Positions 10,644 to 18,963 of a stretch of 64,000 nucleotides of DNA are shown here, piece by piece (the stretch's first letter is position 1; each line of letters opens with the position of its first letter). Source of the DNA: an uncultured Nitrospiraceae bacterium (lineage in GTDB: Bacteria > Nitrospirota > Thermodesulfovibrionia > Thermodesulfovibrionales > Dissulfurispiraceae). The translations under genes were made by a program, and so were the position numbers. The stretch spans positions 1 to 64,000 of the forward strand of contig CAIJNL010000006.1 of assembly GCA_903822005.1 (NCBI GenBank), given 5' to 3'. Under the pieces are notes generated by a model. The model had not been told where the DNA came from, made no database searches, and worked only from the letters and a program-made list of their open reading frames with translations.

Positions 10644-12962
10644 TTACTTTGCCTGATCAAGCACTCTTCTTACCGTCTCCAATAGCGCATGCGGAGAAGT
10701 TGGCTTGATGATCAGTATCTCAGTATTTTCGAGTGTTACTTTTTGGTCTATAAGCTCGCGTGAGTAACCGCTTTCAAAAATAACCTTGATGTCCGGCCGT
10801 ATCTTCAGTATTTCATTATAGGCCTCTAAGCCATTCATCCCAGGCATAAGAATATCGAACAGGAGAAGATGAATTTTGTCCTTGTTGTCAACAAACTTTT
10901 TCACAGCATCCTCACCGTCAACCGCCTCGATGACGGTATAGCCAAACTGAGTCAGTATGACTCGGTTGAGTTTTCTAAGATTCCTGTCATCCTCAGCAAG
11001 GAGTATCGTTTCCGTCCCATACGCGAGAACTGCAGGCAGACGTTCTTCGACAATTTCCTTTACTGTTCCTTTGATAAACGGCAGATATAGTTTAATCGTG
11101 GTACCCTTGCCGAGTTCGCTGTCCACGCCGATATAGCCATTGTGTTGGCTGATTATGCCGTACACAACAGCCATCCCAAGACCTGTGCCTTTCCCGGGGT
11201 CTTTGGTCGTGTAGAAAGGCTCGAAGATTCGTTGCCGCGTCTCTTCGGTCATCCCGATACCAGTATCCGATACGGTAATCAATGCGAAAGTTCCCGTAAT
11301 CTTGACCCCGTCGACACTGATAAAATCTCTGTCCAGGTCAACCAGTCCGGTCGTAATGGTAAAAACACCGCCATGTGGCATGGCATCCCGCGCATTTGTG
11401 CCAAAATTCATCAGCACCTGTCCAAGTTGATTTCTGTCGGCAAGAACCATTATCGAGTCCTCATTAAGCACTGTTTTGCAATCTATATCCTCCCCTATGA
11501 TCCTGAAGAGGAATTTTTCCACTGTCCTTATTATGTCGTTCAGATCAACCGGCTTGCATTCGCTCTTCTGCTTCCTGCTGAAGAGGAGAAGGTCTTTTAT
11601 GAGGTTTACAGCCCGATCAGCGCCTTCGACCATACTTTCAATATTCATGCGTAACGGATCATCTTTCTGCATCTTCATGAGGGTAAGATGTCCATAGCCG
11701 ATAATGGCAGAAAGGACATTGTTGAAATCGTGAGAAATCCCGCCCGCCAGTTGGCCGATCGCCTCCATCTTCTGTGCCTGACGCATCTGATCCTCAAGAC
11801 TCCTGTGCTCAGTAACATCGCGAATAACCTCAATAACACTGTTTACGTTTCCGGATTCATCAAGAATGGGCACTGCCCTTAGCTCAAGTATTTTGTTATT
11901 TGAAGTCGTTAAAGTCCCAATTTCAAGATGGCGGGAATCGAAACACCTGAGCACGGGGCACTCGGGGCATTGAGTTTTAAGGCCCCATAGTGATTCGTGA
12001 CAACACCTTGCGTTCAACATCTCTTGTTCAGCAGATCCTGTCAGTATTGCCATGGCCTTATTCGCCCAAATGATTCTGAGTTCCGGAGTCAAGTGAATGA
12101 TGCTGTCAGGGATGTTGTCCAGCAATGTCTGAAACTCATTCGAAAGCTTTCTGTATTTCTCCTCCCGGACTTGCAATGAGATCTCGGCCTTTTTGCGATC
12201 GCGGATGTCACGTATGATGGCCCAATAGCTGGAAGGATGTCCGGCATTATCCTTGAGCAAAACTGTACGGATTTCTATTGGTACTGGGGTCCCGTCTTTC
12301 CGCAAATACTCCTTCTCGTACAGATCGGAATATCCGCGTGATAGAACAAGTTCGAGATTTCTGGCCGTCAAGTCATGCCATCGTTCGGGAGTGATATCCA
12401 TGTAGGTCAGGCGGTGCAACTCCTCCTCCGTATAACCGAGAAGGTTCCGCAATGCTGTATTCGACTCGATTATGCGTCCGGTCGTGTCAGCAGCGCCGAA
12501 AGCGTCCATCATGTTTTCGTAAAGTTGCCGGTATTTGGCTTCGGATGCCCGCAGTGCCTCTTCCGATTGTTTAAGTTTGCTCCGCTCCTCACGTTCATGC
12601 AATGCCTTTTTAACTGAAGGTACCAGTCTCGCAAGCCGGTCTTTCAGTACATAATCATTAGCCCCCATCTTGAAGGTTTCAACCGCCAATTCGTCCCCTA
12701 TCGTTCCGGTGACCATGATAAAAGGAAGATCTTTATACTTTTGCCGCGTTATGGCGAGTGAAGCAAGACCGTTGAAAGAGGGCAGTTTGTAGTCCGCAAG
12801 TATAATATCTGGAAGAAAAGCATCAATTTCCCGGACGAAATCAGCTTCAGTGTCGACGCGCTTCAAGGTGAATGTTATCCCGCCTTTTCTGAGTTCGCGC
12901 TCAATAAGAGCTGCGTCGCTGATCTGATCCTCGAGTATAAGTATGCGTAAATCTTTTTCCAT
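10644..12962 (-). CDS. hybrid sensor kinase (REC-PAS-PAS-HisKA-HATPase-REC)
   Basis: This 772-residue soluble protein starts with an N-terminal receiver (about 5-120, Asp in IILADYKLPSFNG) and a first PAS (about 140-260). A second PAS (about 285-390) contains clustered cysteines in ARCCHESLWGLKTQCPECPV. Then come HisKA with GGISHDFNNVLSAIIGYG, an ATPase domain (NARDAMP, DTGIGM, GKGTGLGMA) and a C-terminal receiver (about 650-772, LLFDILMPGMNG). Two receivers flanking a kinase point to a multistep phosphorelay. The C-terminal receiver has IIKPTSP where KP is the conserved Lys-Pro. The Cys-rich PAS may bind a metal or sense redox (inference). It lies 21 bases upstream of the REC-kinase gene and 20 bases after the stand-alone receiver gene. 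Confidence 0.9.
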   Translation of the reverse strand: MEKDLRILILEDQISDAALIERELRKGGITFTLKRVDTEADFVREIDAFLPDIILADYKLPSFNGLASLAITRQKYKDLPFIMVTGTIGDELAVETFKMGANDYVLKDRLARLVPSVKKALHEREERSKLKQSEEALRASEAKYRQLYENMMDAFGAADTTGRIIESNTALRNLLGYTEEELHRLTYMDITPERWHDLTARNLELVLSRGYSDLYEKEYLRKDGTPVPIEIRTVLLKDNAGHPSSYWAIIRDIRDRKKAEISLQVREEKYRKLSNEFQTLLDNIPDSIIHLTPELRIIWANKAMAILTGSAEQEMLNARCCHESLWGLKTQCPECPVLRCFDSRHLEIGTLTTSNNKILELRAVPILDESGNVNSVIEVIRDVTEHRSLEDQMRQAQKMEAIGQLAGGISHDFNNVLSAIIGYGHLTLMKMQKDDPLRMNIESMVEGADRAVNLIKDLLLFSRKQKSECKPVDLNDIIRTVEKFLFRIIGEDIDCKTVLNEDSIMVLADRNQLGQVLMNFGTNARDAMPHGGVFTITTGLVDLDRDFISVDGVKITGTFALITVSDTGIGMTEETRQRIFEPFYTTKDPGKGTGLGMAVVYGIISQHNGYIGVDSELGKGTTIKLYLPFIKGTVKEIVEERLPAVLAYGTETILLAEDDRNLRKLNRVILTQFGYTVIEAVDGEDAVKKFVDNKDKIHLLLFDILMPGMNGLEAYNEILKIRPDIKVIFESGYSRELIDQKVTLENTEILIIKPTSPHALLETVRRVLDQAK

Positions 12963-12982
12963 ATAACCCTCTTGGGACTTCC

Positions 12983-13423
12983 TTATAGCGGTGGTTGGTT
13001 AAACAGCGTCCAATAATAGCCCACTGTAGACACCGCTTTCGAAAAGTTTTCAAAATCAATCGGTTTGGTAATATAACTGTTTACCCCGAGCTTATAGCTC
13101 TCGATCAGATCCTGCTCTTCCTTCGAAGACGACAAAACAACAACAGGGACCAGTTTGGTGCGCTCGTCTGACTTGATCCTGCGAAGAACCTCCATGCCCG
13201 ATACTTTTGGCAGCTGCAGATCAAGGAGTATTACTTTTGGAGTGAAATTAATTGCACGGTCAGCATATTTGCCATGGGCAAATATAAAATCCAGTGCGTC
13301 CTGGCCGTCTTTTGACACATGCACGCTATTTGTTATGTTATTTTTTTTAAAGGCCCTAAGTGTGAGTTCTACGTCTGTCGGATTGTCCTCAACTAACAGT
13401 ATCTCGACCACCTTTTCATTCAT
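12983..13423 (-). CDS. stand-alone response regulator (Rcp1-like receiver)
   Basis: This 146-residue single receiver domain has [15 protein letters not shown] at the N-terminus, the phospho-acceptor Asp68 in [12 protein letters not shown] and the Lys in SYITKPIDF. The acidic VEDNPTDxELT start and the extended loop around 45-60 are typical of Rcp1-type regulators paired with phytochrome-like kinases. It has no output domain, so it probably shuttles phosphate between the kinases on either side. The start is clear (CAGGAGGATGAT-ATG). Confidence 0.92.
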
Positions 13424-13489
13424 ATCATCCTCCTGTTGAGCCGTAAAGAAAAGACATCAGCTGCAATGTTTAACATAGTTAATGTGGTT

Positions 13490-14953
13490 CTATTCAGCAT
13501 TCCTGCTTTTCGGCAGCGTAAAATAAAAAATTGCTCCCTCATTAACTATTCCCTCTGCCCACATACGGCCTCCATGCCGGTGAATAATACGCTGAGAAAG
13601 CGCAAGACCGACGCCTGTTCCTTCAAATTGGTCCTGACTATGCAAACGCTGGAACACGCCGAACAGGTTATCAGCAAACTGCATGTCGAATCCCACCCCG
13701 TGGTCCTTGACATAATAAATATTTTCATGCTCTTCAGGACTGCATCCGATTTCAATGTCGATAGAGTCTTTGGGTTCAGAAAATTTAATGGCATTGGATA
13801 AGAGATTAATAATGACCTGGGTTATCAAGACCGGATCACCAATAGCGGCGAGCATCGGCTTAATGTCTAAATGGAAAACCCTTTCCGAAACAGTGTATAT
13901 AAAGTTTTGCGCCGCCGAATTAAAAAGGACATGCATGTCTATCTCCTGCTTTTTTAGCTCTTGACGTCCAATACGGGAGAAGGCCAAAAGGTCGTCAATT
14001 AAATGCCCCATCTTCTTTGCATTGTCGTTTATAACATTCAACAGTCTTTTACCCTCATCATCAAGTTTGTCAGCATAATCTTCTATCACGGCTGCTGAAA
14101 AGCCATTTATAGCACGCAATGGCGTTCGCAGATCGTGGGATACAGAGTAGCTGAATGCCTCAAGTTCTCTGTTTGCCGACTCGCGATACCCGATCTCCTG
14201 CTCCAATGCTGCATATGAATTTTGTAATTGGGCCGCCATGTCATTTGTTTGTCGTGCCAAAATCGAGAGTTCATCGTCGCCTGATACAGCAATGCGATAA
14301 CCAAGATTGCCGGCCCCTATGATAGTGGTCCCTTCACTTATCATCTTGACACGTTTCCCCAACAAGTTGCCGATGGAGACGGAATTGTAAATATTAGATA
14401 TGACCATGAGAGAGATGAAACATAGCAGTAAAAGAACCAATGCTTCGCGCACATTCGTAGCGGTGAGCTCGGCTGAATCATTCAGTCTGGCGATCTTGCC
14501 GTTGAGGTCGTACGCTTTAAGTATTAATTGTCCGATCAGTCTCTGCTCCCCTTCAGGAGATGCGATACTTCCTCTTCGCAAATTACTGTCTTTAGCACGA
14601 ATATTTACTATCCGTGAGAATATTGTATTCGTAATATCAAAGCTCTTTTGTATCTCTTCACACAGCGCTTTATCAGACGTTTTTGTGAAGTTATGCAGTG
14701 CGCGCGTCAATAAGTTATCGACGGTTTTCGTTTTTGAAATGAACTGTGCCCTCGCTCGTTCCACATTAGTCATCAGATACTCGTCCCTGAACATTATCCT
14801 TTCAAGCGCATTTTTCCTTATATCGGCTGCCAGATCTTCGTTCTCTTCCGCCTTGATCATCATGCGATATATCCAGACAAGAACAATCAATAAAATAATA
14901 ATTACAGATAACGAGATCAGATAATTGAGCTTTAGTCTTGTCTCGATCTTCAT
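13490..14953 (-). CDS. membrane sensor histidine kinase (CHASE3-like, HAMP, HisKA, HATPase)
   Basis: This 487-residue protein has TM1 at about 10-30, a helical extracytoplasmic region of about 130 residues and TM2 at about 170-190. A HAMP linker and coil follow, then a phytochrome-type kinase core with SVSHDLRTPLRAINGFSAAV (His in HDLRTP), a FSRIGRQEL segment, and ATPase boxes LLSNAIKFS, KDHGVGFD and GTGVGLALS. The helical sensor resembles CHASE3-type domains, but I cannot be sure from sequence alone. It starts 10 bases after the stop of the binding-protein gene and precedes the Rcp1-like receiver. The kinase is therefore probably informed by the adjacent binding protein and signals to the receiver (inference). 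Confidence 0.88.
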   Translation of the reverse strand: MKIETRLKLNYLISLSVIIILLIVLVWIYRMMIKAEENEDLAADIRKNALERIMFRDEYLMTNVERARAQFISKTKTVDNLLTRALHNFTKTSDKALCEEIQKSFDITNTIFSRIVNIRAKDSNLRRGSIASPEGEQRLIGQLILKAYDLNGKIARLNDSAELTATNVREALVLLLLCFISLMVISNIYNSVSIGNLLGKRVKMISEGTTIIGAGNLGYRIAVSGDDELSILARQTNDMAAQLQNSYAALEQEIGYRESANRELEAFSYSVSHDLRTPLRAINGFSAAVIEDYADKLDDEGKRLLNVINDNAKKMGHLIDDLLAFSRIGRQELKKQEIDMHVLFNSAAQNFIYTVSERVFHLDIKPMLAAIGDPVLITQVIINLLSNAIKFSEPKDSIDIEIGCSPEEHENIYYVKDHGVGFDMQFADNLFGVFQRLHSQDQFEGTGVGLALSQRIIHRHGGRMWAEGIVNEGAIFYFTLPKSRNAE

Positions 14954-14963
14954 TCTTCACGTA

Positions 14964-16034
14964 CTATCGTATTAATCTGACTGCATCCGATTTAACAGAT
15001 TTAAGAGCGTCGGTATAAATAAAGTCAATGAAATTTGGTATGGTCCTGGCTCTTGTTAACTTATTTTTTATTGCCCACTTTGCCTGGTCTTCAAGACTGA
15101 CCAGCAAGGTTTGGTCCAGAATTACTTTGTAGTCAAATAGGTTAAATATCTGGTCCACTGAAGTCCTATCCATTTTGATGAACTCGGACACAAGACGCCG
15201 CGATTCTTCCGGATTTTCATTGATGAACTTTTCTGCTCTGACAAGGGCCCGCAAAACTTTCTTTACTGCCTCAGGATGATGCTTTACAAATTCCTGCGAT
15301 GCCGTAAGACACAAGGGTTCATGAAAAATGGCTTCATCGTAAAAGGTGATGCCTTTATTCCCCAGCCTGTTTTCCACTTGTTGTATAAAGGGAACCCAGG
15401 TTGAGACAGCATCGACTCTTCCTTTTATAATCGCATCCGCCATCTCTCCGAGCGTCATATTGACGATTTTGACCTCATTTCTGCTTATTCCGTGCGTGGT
15501 AAGAAAGGAATCCATAAAGAAATCATTTGCTGTACCCAACGACACCCCTATTTTCTTGCCTTTGAGATCATACGGTGTAGCTATTCCCCTGTCTTTTCTG
15601 GCAACAATCGCCTCACTCCTGCTTGAGGACGCAATTTGGGCAATAATGTAGATTTTTTTTCCGCCTGTGATGGCAAACATTACTGGAGTATCTGCCTGGG
15701 TCGCCATGTCCGCTTTACCTTCCAGAAGCGCATCAAGGGCTAATTTTCCAAAAGGAAAGGGATTTGCTTTTACTTCCAGTCCCTCCGCCGAAAGAAAACC
15801 TTTTAAAAAGGCAATGTGAAAAACAGTAGTATGCGGCAACGTTGAGTACGCAATGGTAATCTTTTCCGGCGGCCCGGTCTGCGTTTGCGGTTGGTTGCAG
15901 CCAGTGGAAAATGCTGACAAGAACACAATAAGAGGAAAAAAGGCAATTGCGCGTTTTACTCCTGGGGGACAGCGACCGGATAATACAGACACAAGCAACG
16001 AGAATGCCATGGATGGAACATTTGTACACCACAT
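14964..16034 (-). CDS. NMT1/SsuA-type ABC substrate-binding lipoprotein without transporter genes
   Basis: This 356-residue periplasmic binding protein of the NrtA/SsuA/TauA/ThiY class has YSTLPHTTVFHIAFLKGFL, LLEGKADMATQADTP, a DLKGKKIGVSLG segment and a WAIKN element near the C-terminus. The start with AAAGGAGA six bases before ATG gives an unusual N-terminus with two hydrophobic stretches (about 8-19 and 31-44) before an AFSTGC lipobox-like site. A start at codon 10 is possible. No permease or ATPase gene is adjacent; instead a sensor kinase, a receiver and two hybrid kinases follow at close spacing. The protein probably works as a ligand sensor for the phosphorelay rather than in uptake (inference). 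Confidence 0.82.
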   Translation of the reverse strand: MWCTNVPSMAFSLLVSVLSGRCPPGVKRAIAFFPLIVFLSAFSTGCNQPQTQTGPPEKITIAYSTLPHTTVFHIAFLKGFLSAEGLEVKANPFPFGKLALDALLEGKADMATQADTPVMFAITGGKKIYIIAQIASSSRSEAIVARKDRGIATPYDLKGKKIGVSLGTANDFFMDSFLTTHGISRNEVKIVNMTLGEMADAIIKGRVDAVSTWVPFIQQVENRLGNKGITFYDEAIFHEPLCLTASQEFVKHHPEAVKKVLRALVRAEKFINENPEESRRLVSEFIKMDRTSVDQIFNLFDYKVILDQTLLVSLEDQAKWAIKNKLTRARTIPNFIDFIYTDALKSVKSDAVRLIR

Positions 16035-16510: not shown

Positions 16511-18430
16511 CTAACGTCCGTAATCCTTCTTCATTTTCGCTAGGTCCTCATAAGCCTTTTTCTCACAATCCGGGCAAATGCCATGACTGAATAAGACCTC
16601 GGAATGATTGATGAGATATGTTTCAACCGCGCTCCAATAACCCTTATCATCTCTTATCTTTTTGCATGAAGCACATATAGGTAGCATGCCGCTCAGAGTT
16701 TTAATATTTGCAAGAGCATCCTTCAACGCAGCCTCTGTTTGCCTGCGTTTATCGATTTCAATTTTCAGTCGTCTGTTCCAGATAAACATCAGCCCCATAA
16801 CAAGGGTGAAAATTACCGCAATTACAAACATCCATTTCAGCACCTCAGTCCAGTTTGGCCGGTATTCAACCCGGGCAGTAAACCATTTCTGGACTATCAT
16901 ATCAACTCTGTCCTGAGGAATGGATTTAATGGCCTTGTTAAGGATTCCGACAAGTTCGGGATAATCTTTGCGTACAGCATAAAAATAAGGCTCACGTGGA
17001 ATATCAGCTATACCCGCTATTTTGAGATTTGGATACTGATTCATTACATAGGTGGCAAAATATATTTTTGAAATCAGGGCGTCGGCTTTGCCTTCAGACA
17101 CCGCCTTGAACATCTGATCCAGTGTGTCCACACGAACAATTTCAATGTCACTATAGGGGCTGAAGATTTTTTGATGGAGCTTCAACCCTGTCAGAACGAC
17201 AATTTTCTTCCCTTCAAGTGCGCCTATTCCGCTTATAAACGGGGTATCACTGCGGGTGACAATGATCTGCTCGAAGTCCATAAAAGGCTCTGTTAATGTC
17301 ATATATCCAAAACGTTCCGGGACGTAGACGGAAAGGAACATATCTATTTCACCCGATTTTGCCTTTGTATCCATATCCCTAAAATCACATATAACATACT
17401 GAAAGTTTAATCCTGTACGTTCAGACAGAAGATTGACATAATCAGGCTCAATCCCTTTGATAGAGCCTTTTTCCAGGAACTTCAACGGAGGCATAACAGG
17501 GGCAATGCCTAATTTGATGGTTTTATGCCTTTTTCGCCATGCTTCTTCTTTAGGTGTCAACAGGATTTTGGCAGCGGTGATTTTAAAGAACCTTTTCGCC
17601 GGGTCCTGTATCCAGCGGGCTTCAATATCAGCCAGTTCTTTATACGATATTGCGTTTAACCCCGTATCTACAAGGGCACGCAATTCGGTATTGTTCTTAA
17701 GAACACCAGCATGAATATCTTCTCTGTAGAGTATCGTGTCAAGGGTTTCAAACTCACCAGATACCCCCATGCGATCAATAACAGATGCCCCTGCCGGCAA
17801 AGCTGCCACAAAAGCCTTTGCTTTTCCTTCCAGAGATACCTTGACAAGTTCCTCTCTGGTATCGCAAGGCAAAACCCGTATGCCTGGATACTTATTCTTC
17901 AAAAACTGTTCTGGTTGTGATCCTTTGACCACTGCTACGGTTTGCCCTGAAAGTTCCTTAATGTCGGAAATCTTCCCCTGTTTTATCGGATAGAACAGAC
18001 TAATCTCAACTTTATAAAAGGTTTGAGAACCGACTATCGGCTTGAAACGTTCCGGCGTTAGTACTAGCCCCGAGTGAATATCGGCTTTGTTATTTTTCAG
18101 GTTTTCAAGGGATGTTTCCCAGTCTGATGGGATAAATTCGATTTGTTTGCCGGTTTTTTGCGCCCATATTCGCCATATATCAACAAACATGCCCGCAGGC
18201 TTGCCTTCGGCATTCAAAAAAGTGAATGGCTGAAAATCCGTACTGATGGCAATTATTAGCGGCGCAGACACAACGTTATCGGCAACTCCGCTCGTGACTT
18301 TTTCGACCGGCCTAGCGGTCTCCCCCTGCTTTTTGCAGGACGAAATAAATAAAATCCCGGGAATAAGCAGCATTATAAAAATACTTCTTAAAGAAAATCG
18401 CAAACTCTTATTGCAGGCGAACATACTCAC
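16511..18430 (-). CDS. membrane protein with two SBP_bac_3 domains and a Cys-rich C-terminal module
   Basis: This 639-residue protein starts with an export signal ending in LFISSC, a good lipobox. Two periplasmic solute-binding domains of the SBP_bac_3/Bug type follow, the first at about 55-270 (IAISTDFQPFTFLNAEGKP) and the second at about 300-520 (IKLGIAPVMPPLKFLEKG). Then come one membrane helix (about 537-556), a short coiled coil and a C-terminal segment (about 585-632) with MLPICASCKKIRDDKGYW and GICPDC. In most relatives the tandem SBP domains feed a kinase, GGDEF or other output; here only the four-Cys module remains. That module often sits at the ends of PAS and receiver proteins in Deltaproteobacteria-like genomes and probably binds zinc or another metal (inference). 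GTG 18430 or ATG 18424 may start it; no strong ribosome site is visible. Confidence 0.82.
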   Translation of the reverse strand: MSMFACNKSLRFSLRSIFIMLLIPGILFISSCKKQGETARPVEKVTSGVADNVVSAPLIIAISTDFQPFTFLNAEGKPAGMFVDIWRIWAQKTGKQIEFIPSDWETSLENLKNNKADIHSGLVLTPERFKPIVGSQTFYKVEISLFYPIKQGKISDIKELSGQTVAVVKGSQPEQFLKNKYPGIRVLPCDTREELVKVSLEGKAKAFVAALPAGASVIDRMGVSGEFETLDTILYREDIHAGVLKNNTELRALVDTGLNAISYKELADIEARWIQDPAKRFFKITAAKILLTPKEEAWRKRHKTIKLGIAPVMPPLKFLEKGSIKGIEPDYVNLLSERTGLNFQYVICDFRDMDTKAKSGEIDMFLSVYVPERFGYMTLTEPFMDFEQIIVTRSDTPFISGIGALEGKKIVVLTGLKLHQKIFSPYSDIEIVRVDTLDQMFKAVSEGKADALISKIYFATYVMNQYPNLKIAGIADIPREPYFYAVRKDYPELVGILNKAIKSIPQDRVDMIVQKWFTARVEYRPNWTEVLKWMFVIAVIFTLVMGLMFIWNRRLKIEIDKRRQTEAALKDALANIKTLSGMLPICASCKKIRDDKGYWSAVETYLINHSEVLFSHGICPDCEKKAYEDLAKMKKDYGR

Positions 18431-18963
18431 TAATACCGAAGACCGAAAAACCGGCAGCTATCGACATGAGCGATAGAGTTACTGAAATCAAGGAATTGCG
18501 AATCATCTTAACTCCTCACCTGAACATGCGCTTCAAATATTATTCTTTAATTTTGTACAGTTCCACATATGCTCTGCCCTCTTTAGTCCGATCCGGCTTA
18601 TGAATAGTATACTGGATTTTGGATGCTTTTGTGATGACAGGCAAGGCAGATTGAAAGTACATTCCTAATATAAGCTTAAATTTGCATATCACACGATGAG
18701 ATTCTGAGAAATCGTCTGGCATATTTCCGTTAAATGACCTTACCGATTACAAAAATCAATCTCCATAGCCGATTCGAAATATCCCTATCGTGTCGAAAAA
18801 GTGATGGTTACCCTATTTAGTGGATTTTAAAATATTGTGAGGCCAATTGGTTTTGAGCCAAAGTGACAGAGTGCATATACAAAAAGGGTGGCACAGTATT
18901 TTCCATGCCACCATTTTTGACTTCATTGAACGTTTCAACTCATTGGTTTAATAAAGGGGAAAT
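18431..18963. other. intergenic region between the two-SBP gene and tRNA-Pro
   Basis: No convincing gene is seen in these 533 bases. A 60-codon minus-strand frame (18540-18722) looks weakly protein-like but has only a poor ribosome site and no recognised family. A terminator lies at 18881-18918, and the att-like repeat begins at 18960. Confidence 0.5.
18881..18918 (-). terminator. terminator of the ihfA-merR-tRNA-Pro transcript
   Basis: On the minus strand, GGTGGCA and TGCCACC form a 7-bp stem with a 12-base loop followed by CTTTTT. On the plus strand the same stem is followed by ATTTTTG, so it could act in both directions. It lies about 46 bases beyond the CCA end of tRNA-Pro. Confidence 0.75.

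Follow-up and report, generated by a model that had tools for sequence, protein, structure and literature searches.

An unnamed four-cysteine module, probably zinc-binding, at the output end of diverse bacterial sensors

Membrane receptors with tandem SBP_bac_3 (Venus flytrap) domains, such as the BvgS/EvgS family of sensor kinases, normally feed a kinase or GGDEF output. In a 64,000-nucleotide stretch of an uncultured Nitrospiraceae genome (contig CAIJNL010000006.1, assembly GCA_903822005.1; hereafter the window), one such receptor ends instead in a short coil and a module with four cysteines. What, then, is the output of this receptor? A preliminary description proposed that the module, noted there at the ends of many PAS and receiver proteins, is a signalling or metal-binding domain acting as the sole output. 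In this study, we examined the architecture of the receptor and the distribution, conservation, predicted fold, and linker lengths of the module. The results support that proposal and indicate that the module is more general than first stated.

Architecture of the receptor

The receptor gene at 16511-18430 (-) encodes 639 aa from a GTG start. The N-terminal signal/anchor segment (18335-18430 (-)) contains a hydrophobic stretch at residues 9-27 and ends in a lipobox-like ISSC with Cys32. Two SBP_bac_3 domains (PF00497) were matched over the Pfam cut-off at 17606-18259 (-) and 16877-17518 (-). A hydropathy scan indicated one later hydrophobic helix near residues 527-551, assigned as the transmembrane (TM) helix at 16778-16843 (-) (residues about 530-551). 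This is followed by a coiled-coil linker at 16691-16777 (-) (residues 552-580) and by the module at 16514-16690 (-) (residues 581-639), GMLPICASCKKIRDDKGYW...FSHGICPDC, with the cysteines at 586, 589, 619, and 622. A 32-aa ORF at 18408-18506 (-) with a ribosome-binding-like GGTGAGGAG overlaps the start of the receptor gene in another frame, whereas the start of the receptor itself has no clear site.

No GGDEF or other cytoplasmic output domain was matched, and neither HisKA nor HATPase_c was found at E up to 1. The EvgS profile of NCBIfam matched only residues 289-587, far below its cut-off. The front half therefore looks like a flytrap kinase of the BvgS/EvgS type, with two SBP_bac_3 domains, one TM helix, and a helical linker into the cytoplasm, whose kinase has been replaced; the kinase, receiver, and HPt parts are absent. 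The next gene on the same strand begins 476 bases downstream and encodes an NMT1-type binding protein, followed closely by a HAMP histidine kinase, a single receiver, and a hybrid kinase (a tight run at 10644-16034 (-)).

The partial EvgS match and the missing kinase could also be explained if the protein were a decayed BvgS/EvgS-type kinase with a spurious C-terminus. However, a search with the last 71 residues found 8 copies of the module in the same genome, among which fifteen columns are invariant. By eye, the parts upstream of these copies are receiver (two), PAS, TM-PAS, GAF, Cache-like TM, multi-TM, and the flytraps of the window protein. Furthermore, flytrap versions recur in other genomes: three loci matched both flytraps of the window protein and two matched one. 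Decay is thus very unlikely.

Distribution and domain contexts

Next, we searched for the module by profile in other genomes. It was found in 35 of 40 relatives and, at E up to 1e-8, in 79 of 148 genomes of the same phylum. It was also found in 67 of 148 genomes of the phylum of Desulfacinum, 43 of 119 Acidobacteria, 28 of 249 Pseudomonadota (the phylum of Contendobacter), and 10 of 121 Chloroflexi (the phylum of an Anaerolineae locus). Up to 19 copies occurred in one genome. By contrast, no phage record, one plasmid record, and three viral contigs were found, so the module is not a mobile or phage trait.

The domains accompanying the module were tallied with Pfam in two sets. Of 139 proteins, up to 57 had PAS (by the commonest PAS family), 32 receiver, 13 HAMP, 8 GAF, 6 dCache_1, 5 Tll0287-like, 4 SBP_bac_3, and 3 each MASE3, HisKA_7TM, and CHASE. 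Of 112 more, up to 26 had PAS, 25 receiver, 8 Reg_prop, 5 Y_Y_Y, 5 GAF, 5 dCache_1, and 4 TPR. Propeller (Reg_prop/Y_Y_Y) receptors ending in the module were found in acidobacterial genomes and resemble hybrid two-component sensors without kinase. No kinase, GGDEF, EAL, or HD family was among the 25 families inspected of 59 and of 60 in the two sets, and HK, GGDEF, and HD-GYP motifs were found in 0 of 139 proteins; a loose EAL pattern matched 4, which were unconfirmed. The preliminary description was thus right about PAS and receiver proteins, but missed how wide the set of contexts is.

Of 435 distinct module proteins, 418 end within 40 residues of the last Cys. The module is not always terminal, however, and at times it may be an intermediate. 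Of the 15 proteins with tails over 45 residues, 10 continue into GAF domains (Pfam-tested for one and judged by eye for the rest), 3 into a probable winged helix, 1 into PilZ over the cut-off (L122:1189-1689 (-), L numbers denoting the gathered loci), which is a link to cyclic di-GMP, and 1 into a tail of no evident domain. An architecture with the module before two or three GAF domains, with or without an N-terminal PAS, was observed in relatives of the window's family and order. The module occurs alone only rarely: two small ORFs of about 58 and 79 aa (L178:9710-9886 (-) and in L182) consist of little more than a divergent module, suggesting that stand-alone forms may exist, whereas several other short ORFs were fragments.

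The probable winged helix, a conserved tail of 55-60 residues in one Chloroflexi genome, stayed below the Pfam cut-off (HTH_IclR, E 0.0034 for the tail tested). It raises the possibility that the module contacts nucleic acid or RNA polymerase, making the proteins one-component or response-regulator transcription factors of a new type. Conserved K4, K5, and R7 flank the knuckle, and treble-clef fingers appear to include polymerase regulators of the DksA type. However, the mean net charge of the module is -0.7, 134 of 258 proteins have a predicted membrane helix, and no match to zf-dskA_traR (at E up to 1) or to other nucleic-acid fingers above cut-off was obtained. We consider this explanation unlikely.

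We also examined the neighbouring genes, called by a simple longest-ORF method. Of 67 co-directional neighbours within 200 bp, 8 were left out because they were the module gene itself, another module gene, or doubtful ORFs. Among the remaining 59, HATPase_c was in 11 and HisKA and Response_reg in 9 each, although most neighbours are not signalling genes. Among 74 genes at least three away in the same loci (a random sample of 75 with one repeat), neither HATPase_c nor Response_reg appeared among families with two or more members.

Conservation and predicted fold

In 112 profile-found proteins, four Cys and one His are invariant; these are 112 of 119 hits, six with short upstream parts and one truncated frame having been left out. 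All four Cys are held by 253 of 258 proteins, the 5 misses being 2 Cys-to-Arg changes and 3 truncated or broken frames, and 246 of the 253 have 29 residues between the pairs. In the 242 proteins of modal spacing, C, W, P, and H reach 100% (rounded) and K, R, F, and Y 98-99%. It should be noted that the loci were the best-scoring of each search, which inflates these figures.

The module matched no named domain above cut-off in Pfam, NCBIfam, PHROGs, or PADLOC. Searches of the PDB by sequence (best E 0.019, partial and without the Cys pattern) and by profile (best E 0.038, partial) likewise gave nothing above cut-off. Eight motif strings occurred in no paper of the library searched, although subscription papers lay outside it and absence is therefore not proven, and word searches gave only an archaeal census as relevant. 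The nearest published idea that we found is HalOD2 (PMC5847659), an output domain of haloarchaeal response regulators, which is also receiver-linked with two CxxC motifs and a predicted Zn finger. However, HalOD2 is restricted to haloarchaea, has CxxC pairs 20-25 residues apart, and has a HalX-like N-terminal part.

AlphaFold2 prediction on the coil plus module gave pLDDT 83 and pTM 0.53, and that on the 56-residue core with 84 sequences gave pLDDT 87.6 and pTM 0.67. The predicted order is a strand ending at the first CxxC, a small hairpin, a short helix, a strand, and the second CxxC at the start of a helix, which is a treble-clef-like layout. Foldseek against the PDB gave nothing significant, PerR being first at E 0.29, and against viral models the best E was 0.039 to an unnamed 71-aa protein. 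A second structural comparison listed Nmd3 (Z 3.5), the ClpX N-terminal zinc-binding domain (2ds5; Z 2.6, 37 residues, 3.5 Å), PerR (Z 2.4, 35 residues, 2.8 Å), and Zur (Z 2.0). The entries listed with Z of 2 or more appear to be all Cys4 zinc proteins, as stated in the PDB title for PerR. The predicted fold and these weak matches make zinc likely, but it is not shown, and no family membership follows. The ClpX domain, probably a dimeric docking domain, is fused to an unfoldase rather than to sensors, and zf-C4_ClpX was not among the matches of the module alone at E up to 1.

Fur homology was considered because the search of the same genome hit a Fur protein at E 0.027 and the Cys pairs align. 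PerR shows the order strand-CxxC, helix, strand-CxxC, and 34-35 of its residues superpose at 2.3-2.8 Å, with both CxxC pairs in range in the alignment over 35 residues at 2.8 Å. However, hhalign gave a probability of only 2%, no Pfam match to FUR (PF01475) was obtained, there is no Fur DNA-binding domain, and the helix after the second pair differs; the resemblance is therefore kept as an analogy only. The PDB title of 2fe3 calls the PerR site a structural redox switch, and the module might similarly be a metal or redox sensor, in which a Zn(Cys)4 site oxidises or loses zinc and adds a cytoplasmic input to each receptor. This appears improbable, since the module sits after the coil at the output end with no other effector domain in nearly all proteins, so that sensing alone would leave these proteins without output, and since residues beyond the Cys (W, K, R, Y, F, and H) are as conserved as the ligands.

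Linker lengths and coil register

If the module is an output domain of a dimeric signalling helix, the linker should vary in heptads. We therefore measured the distance from upstream motifs to the first Cys. In 60 receivers, the distance from the Lys of the KP motif was 27, 34, 41, 48, 55, 69, or 90, all in one class mod 7. A receiver tree needs at least 12 length changes, and the chance of seven distinct lengths falling in one class is (1/7)^6, about 8e-6, if lengths were uniform. The 90 class (5 proteins) contains an inserted stretch, so its agreement may be luck. Receivers with K[GDQN] gave 42 (7), 49 (3), 54 (2), and 58 (2); 10 of 14 fit, and 54 and 58 do not.

With a strict pattern, adopted because looser anchors included false positives (HAMP, Cache, TM, and coil hits), the distance from the PAS 'DIT' was 35 in 70 of 83 proteins, 42 in 8, 21 and 28 once each, and 24, 46, and 74 once each. 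The three exceptions differ from 35 by 11, 11, and 39 (28 + 11), that is, by a hendecad step. Pooled PAS lengths alone are only mildly unusual, at least 4 of 7 distinct lengths in one class having a simulated chance of 0.04. HAMP gave 47, 61, or 68, 6 of 6 in one class. Tail lengths after the module, used as the control, were spread over all classes (417 proteins), whereas a local control with HK and GGDEF linkers was too small to use (4 and 0 cases).

Along 420 aligned coils, hydrophobic residues peaked at a period of 3.5 with the pattern a-x-x-d-e-x-x. Counted from the first Cys, I/L/M/V/F occupied a (-17) at 95% and e (-13) at 90%, Ala occupied d (-14) at 82%, and the values at a (-10) and d (-7) were 97% and 98%. 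In the window protein these positions are L569, A572, L573, I576, and L579. Notably, Rec-GGDEF enzymes were reported to have linker lengths separated by multiples of 7, measured from the same KP motif, and a conserved a-x-x-d-e-x-x coil that switches register on activation, as seen in crystals (PMC8041772). In contrast to Rec-GGDEF and PAS-GGDEF cyclases (DgcR, WspR), the output here is a roughly 55-residue four-Cys module, predicted to be a finger, with no GGDEF or other enzyme motif. Coil antagonism has been described in BvgS-type flytrap kinases with and without PAS (PMC5829827). The signalling helix (S-helix) is defined by an ERT signature (PMC1592074), which this coil lacks: its commonest residues read E-R-E, with no R-T pair at -25 to -7. 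The fixed register of the coil with the module, which was not noticed in the preliminary description, newly supports an output role, although no function is shown.

The module could instead be only a dimer cap that stabilises the end of the coil, the proteins acting by mixing with histidine kinases as decoys or hetero-partners. The enrichment of kinase and receiver genes next to module genes and the register of the coil are consistent with this. However, a cap would not need near-invariant residues, inferred to be on the surface, across many phyla, and the module exists with single soluble receivers and, rarely, alone. We regard this explanation as doubtful.

Discussion

Taken together, these findings suggest, with moderate confidence, that the C-terminal module is a small Zn(Cys)4 finger working as a non-enzymatic output (transmitter) domain of dimeric sensors. 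Ligand binding by the two flytrap domains, or phosphorylation or ligand binding in other sensors, would change the register or rotation of a parallel coiled coil that enters the module in fixed phase. This would re-orient the two fingers of the dimer, exposing or hiding a conserved surface (K, R, W, Y, F, and H) that docks a cytoplasmic partner. Zinc, dimerisation, the register switch in this protein, and the docking partner are inferred; no zinc, dimer, or partner has been observed.

More tentatively, the module may be a general output channel of bacterial signalling, so far unnamed, alongside kinases, cyclases, and DNA-binding domains: one zinc-finger dimer, switched by coil register, through which many sensor types in many phyla act on the same conserved cytoplasmic partner. 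Without a model for the module, the proteins that carry it, in genomes of several bacterial phyla, can only be annotated as sensors or response regulators without output. If one partner reads them all, its identification would explain a whole layer of signalling at once.
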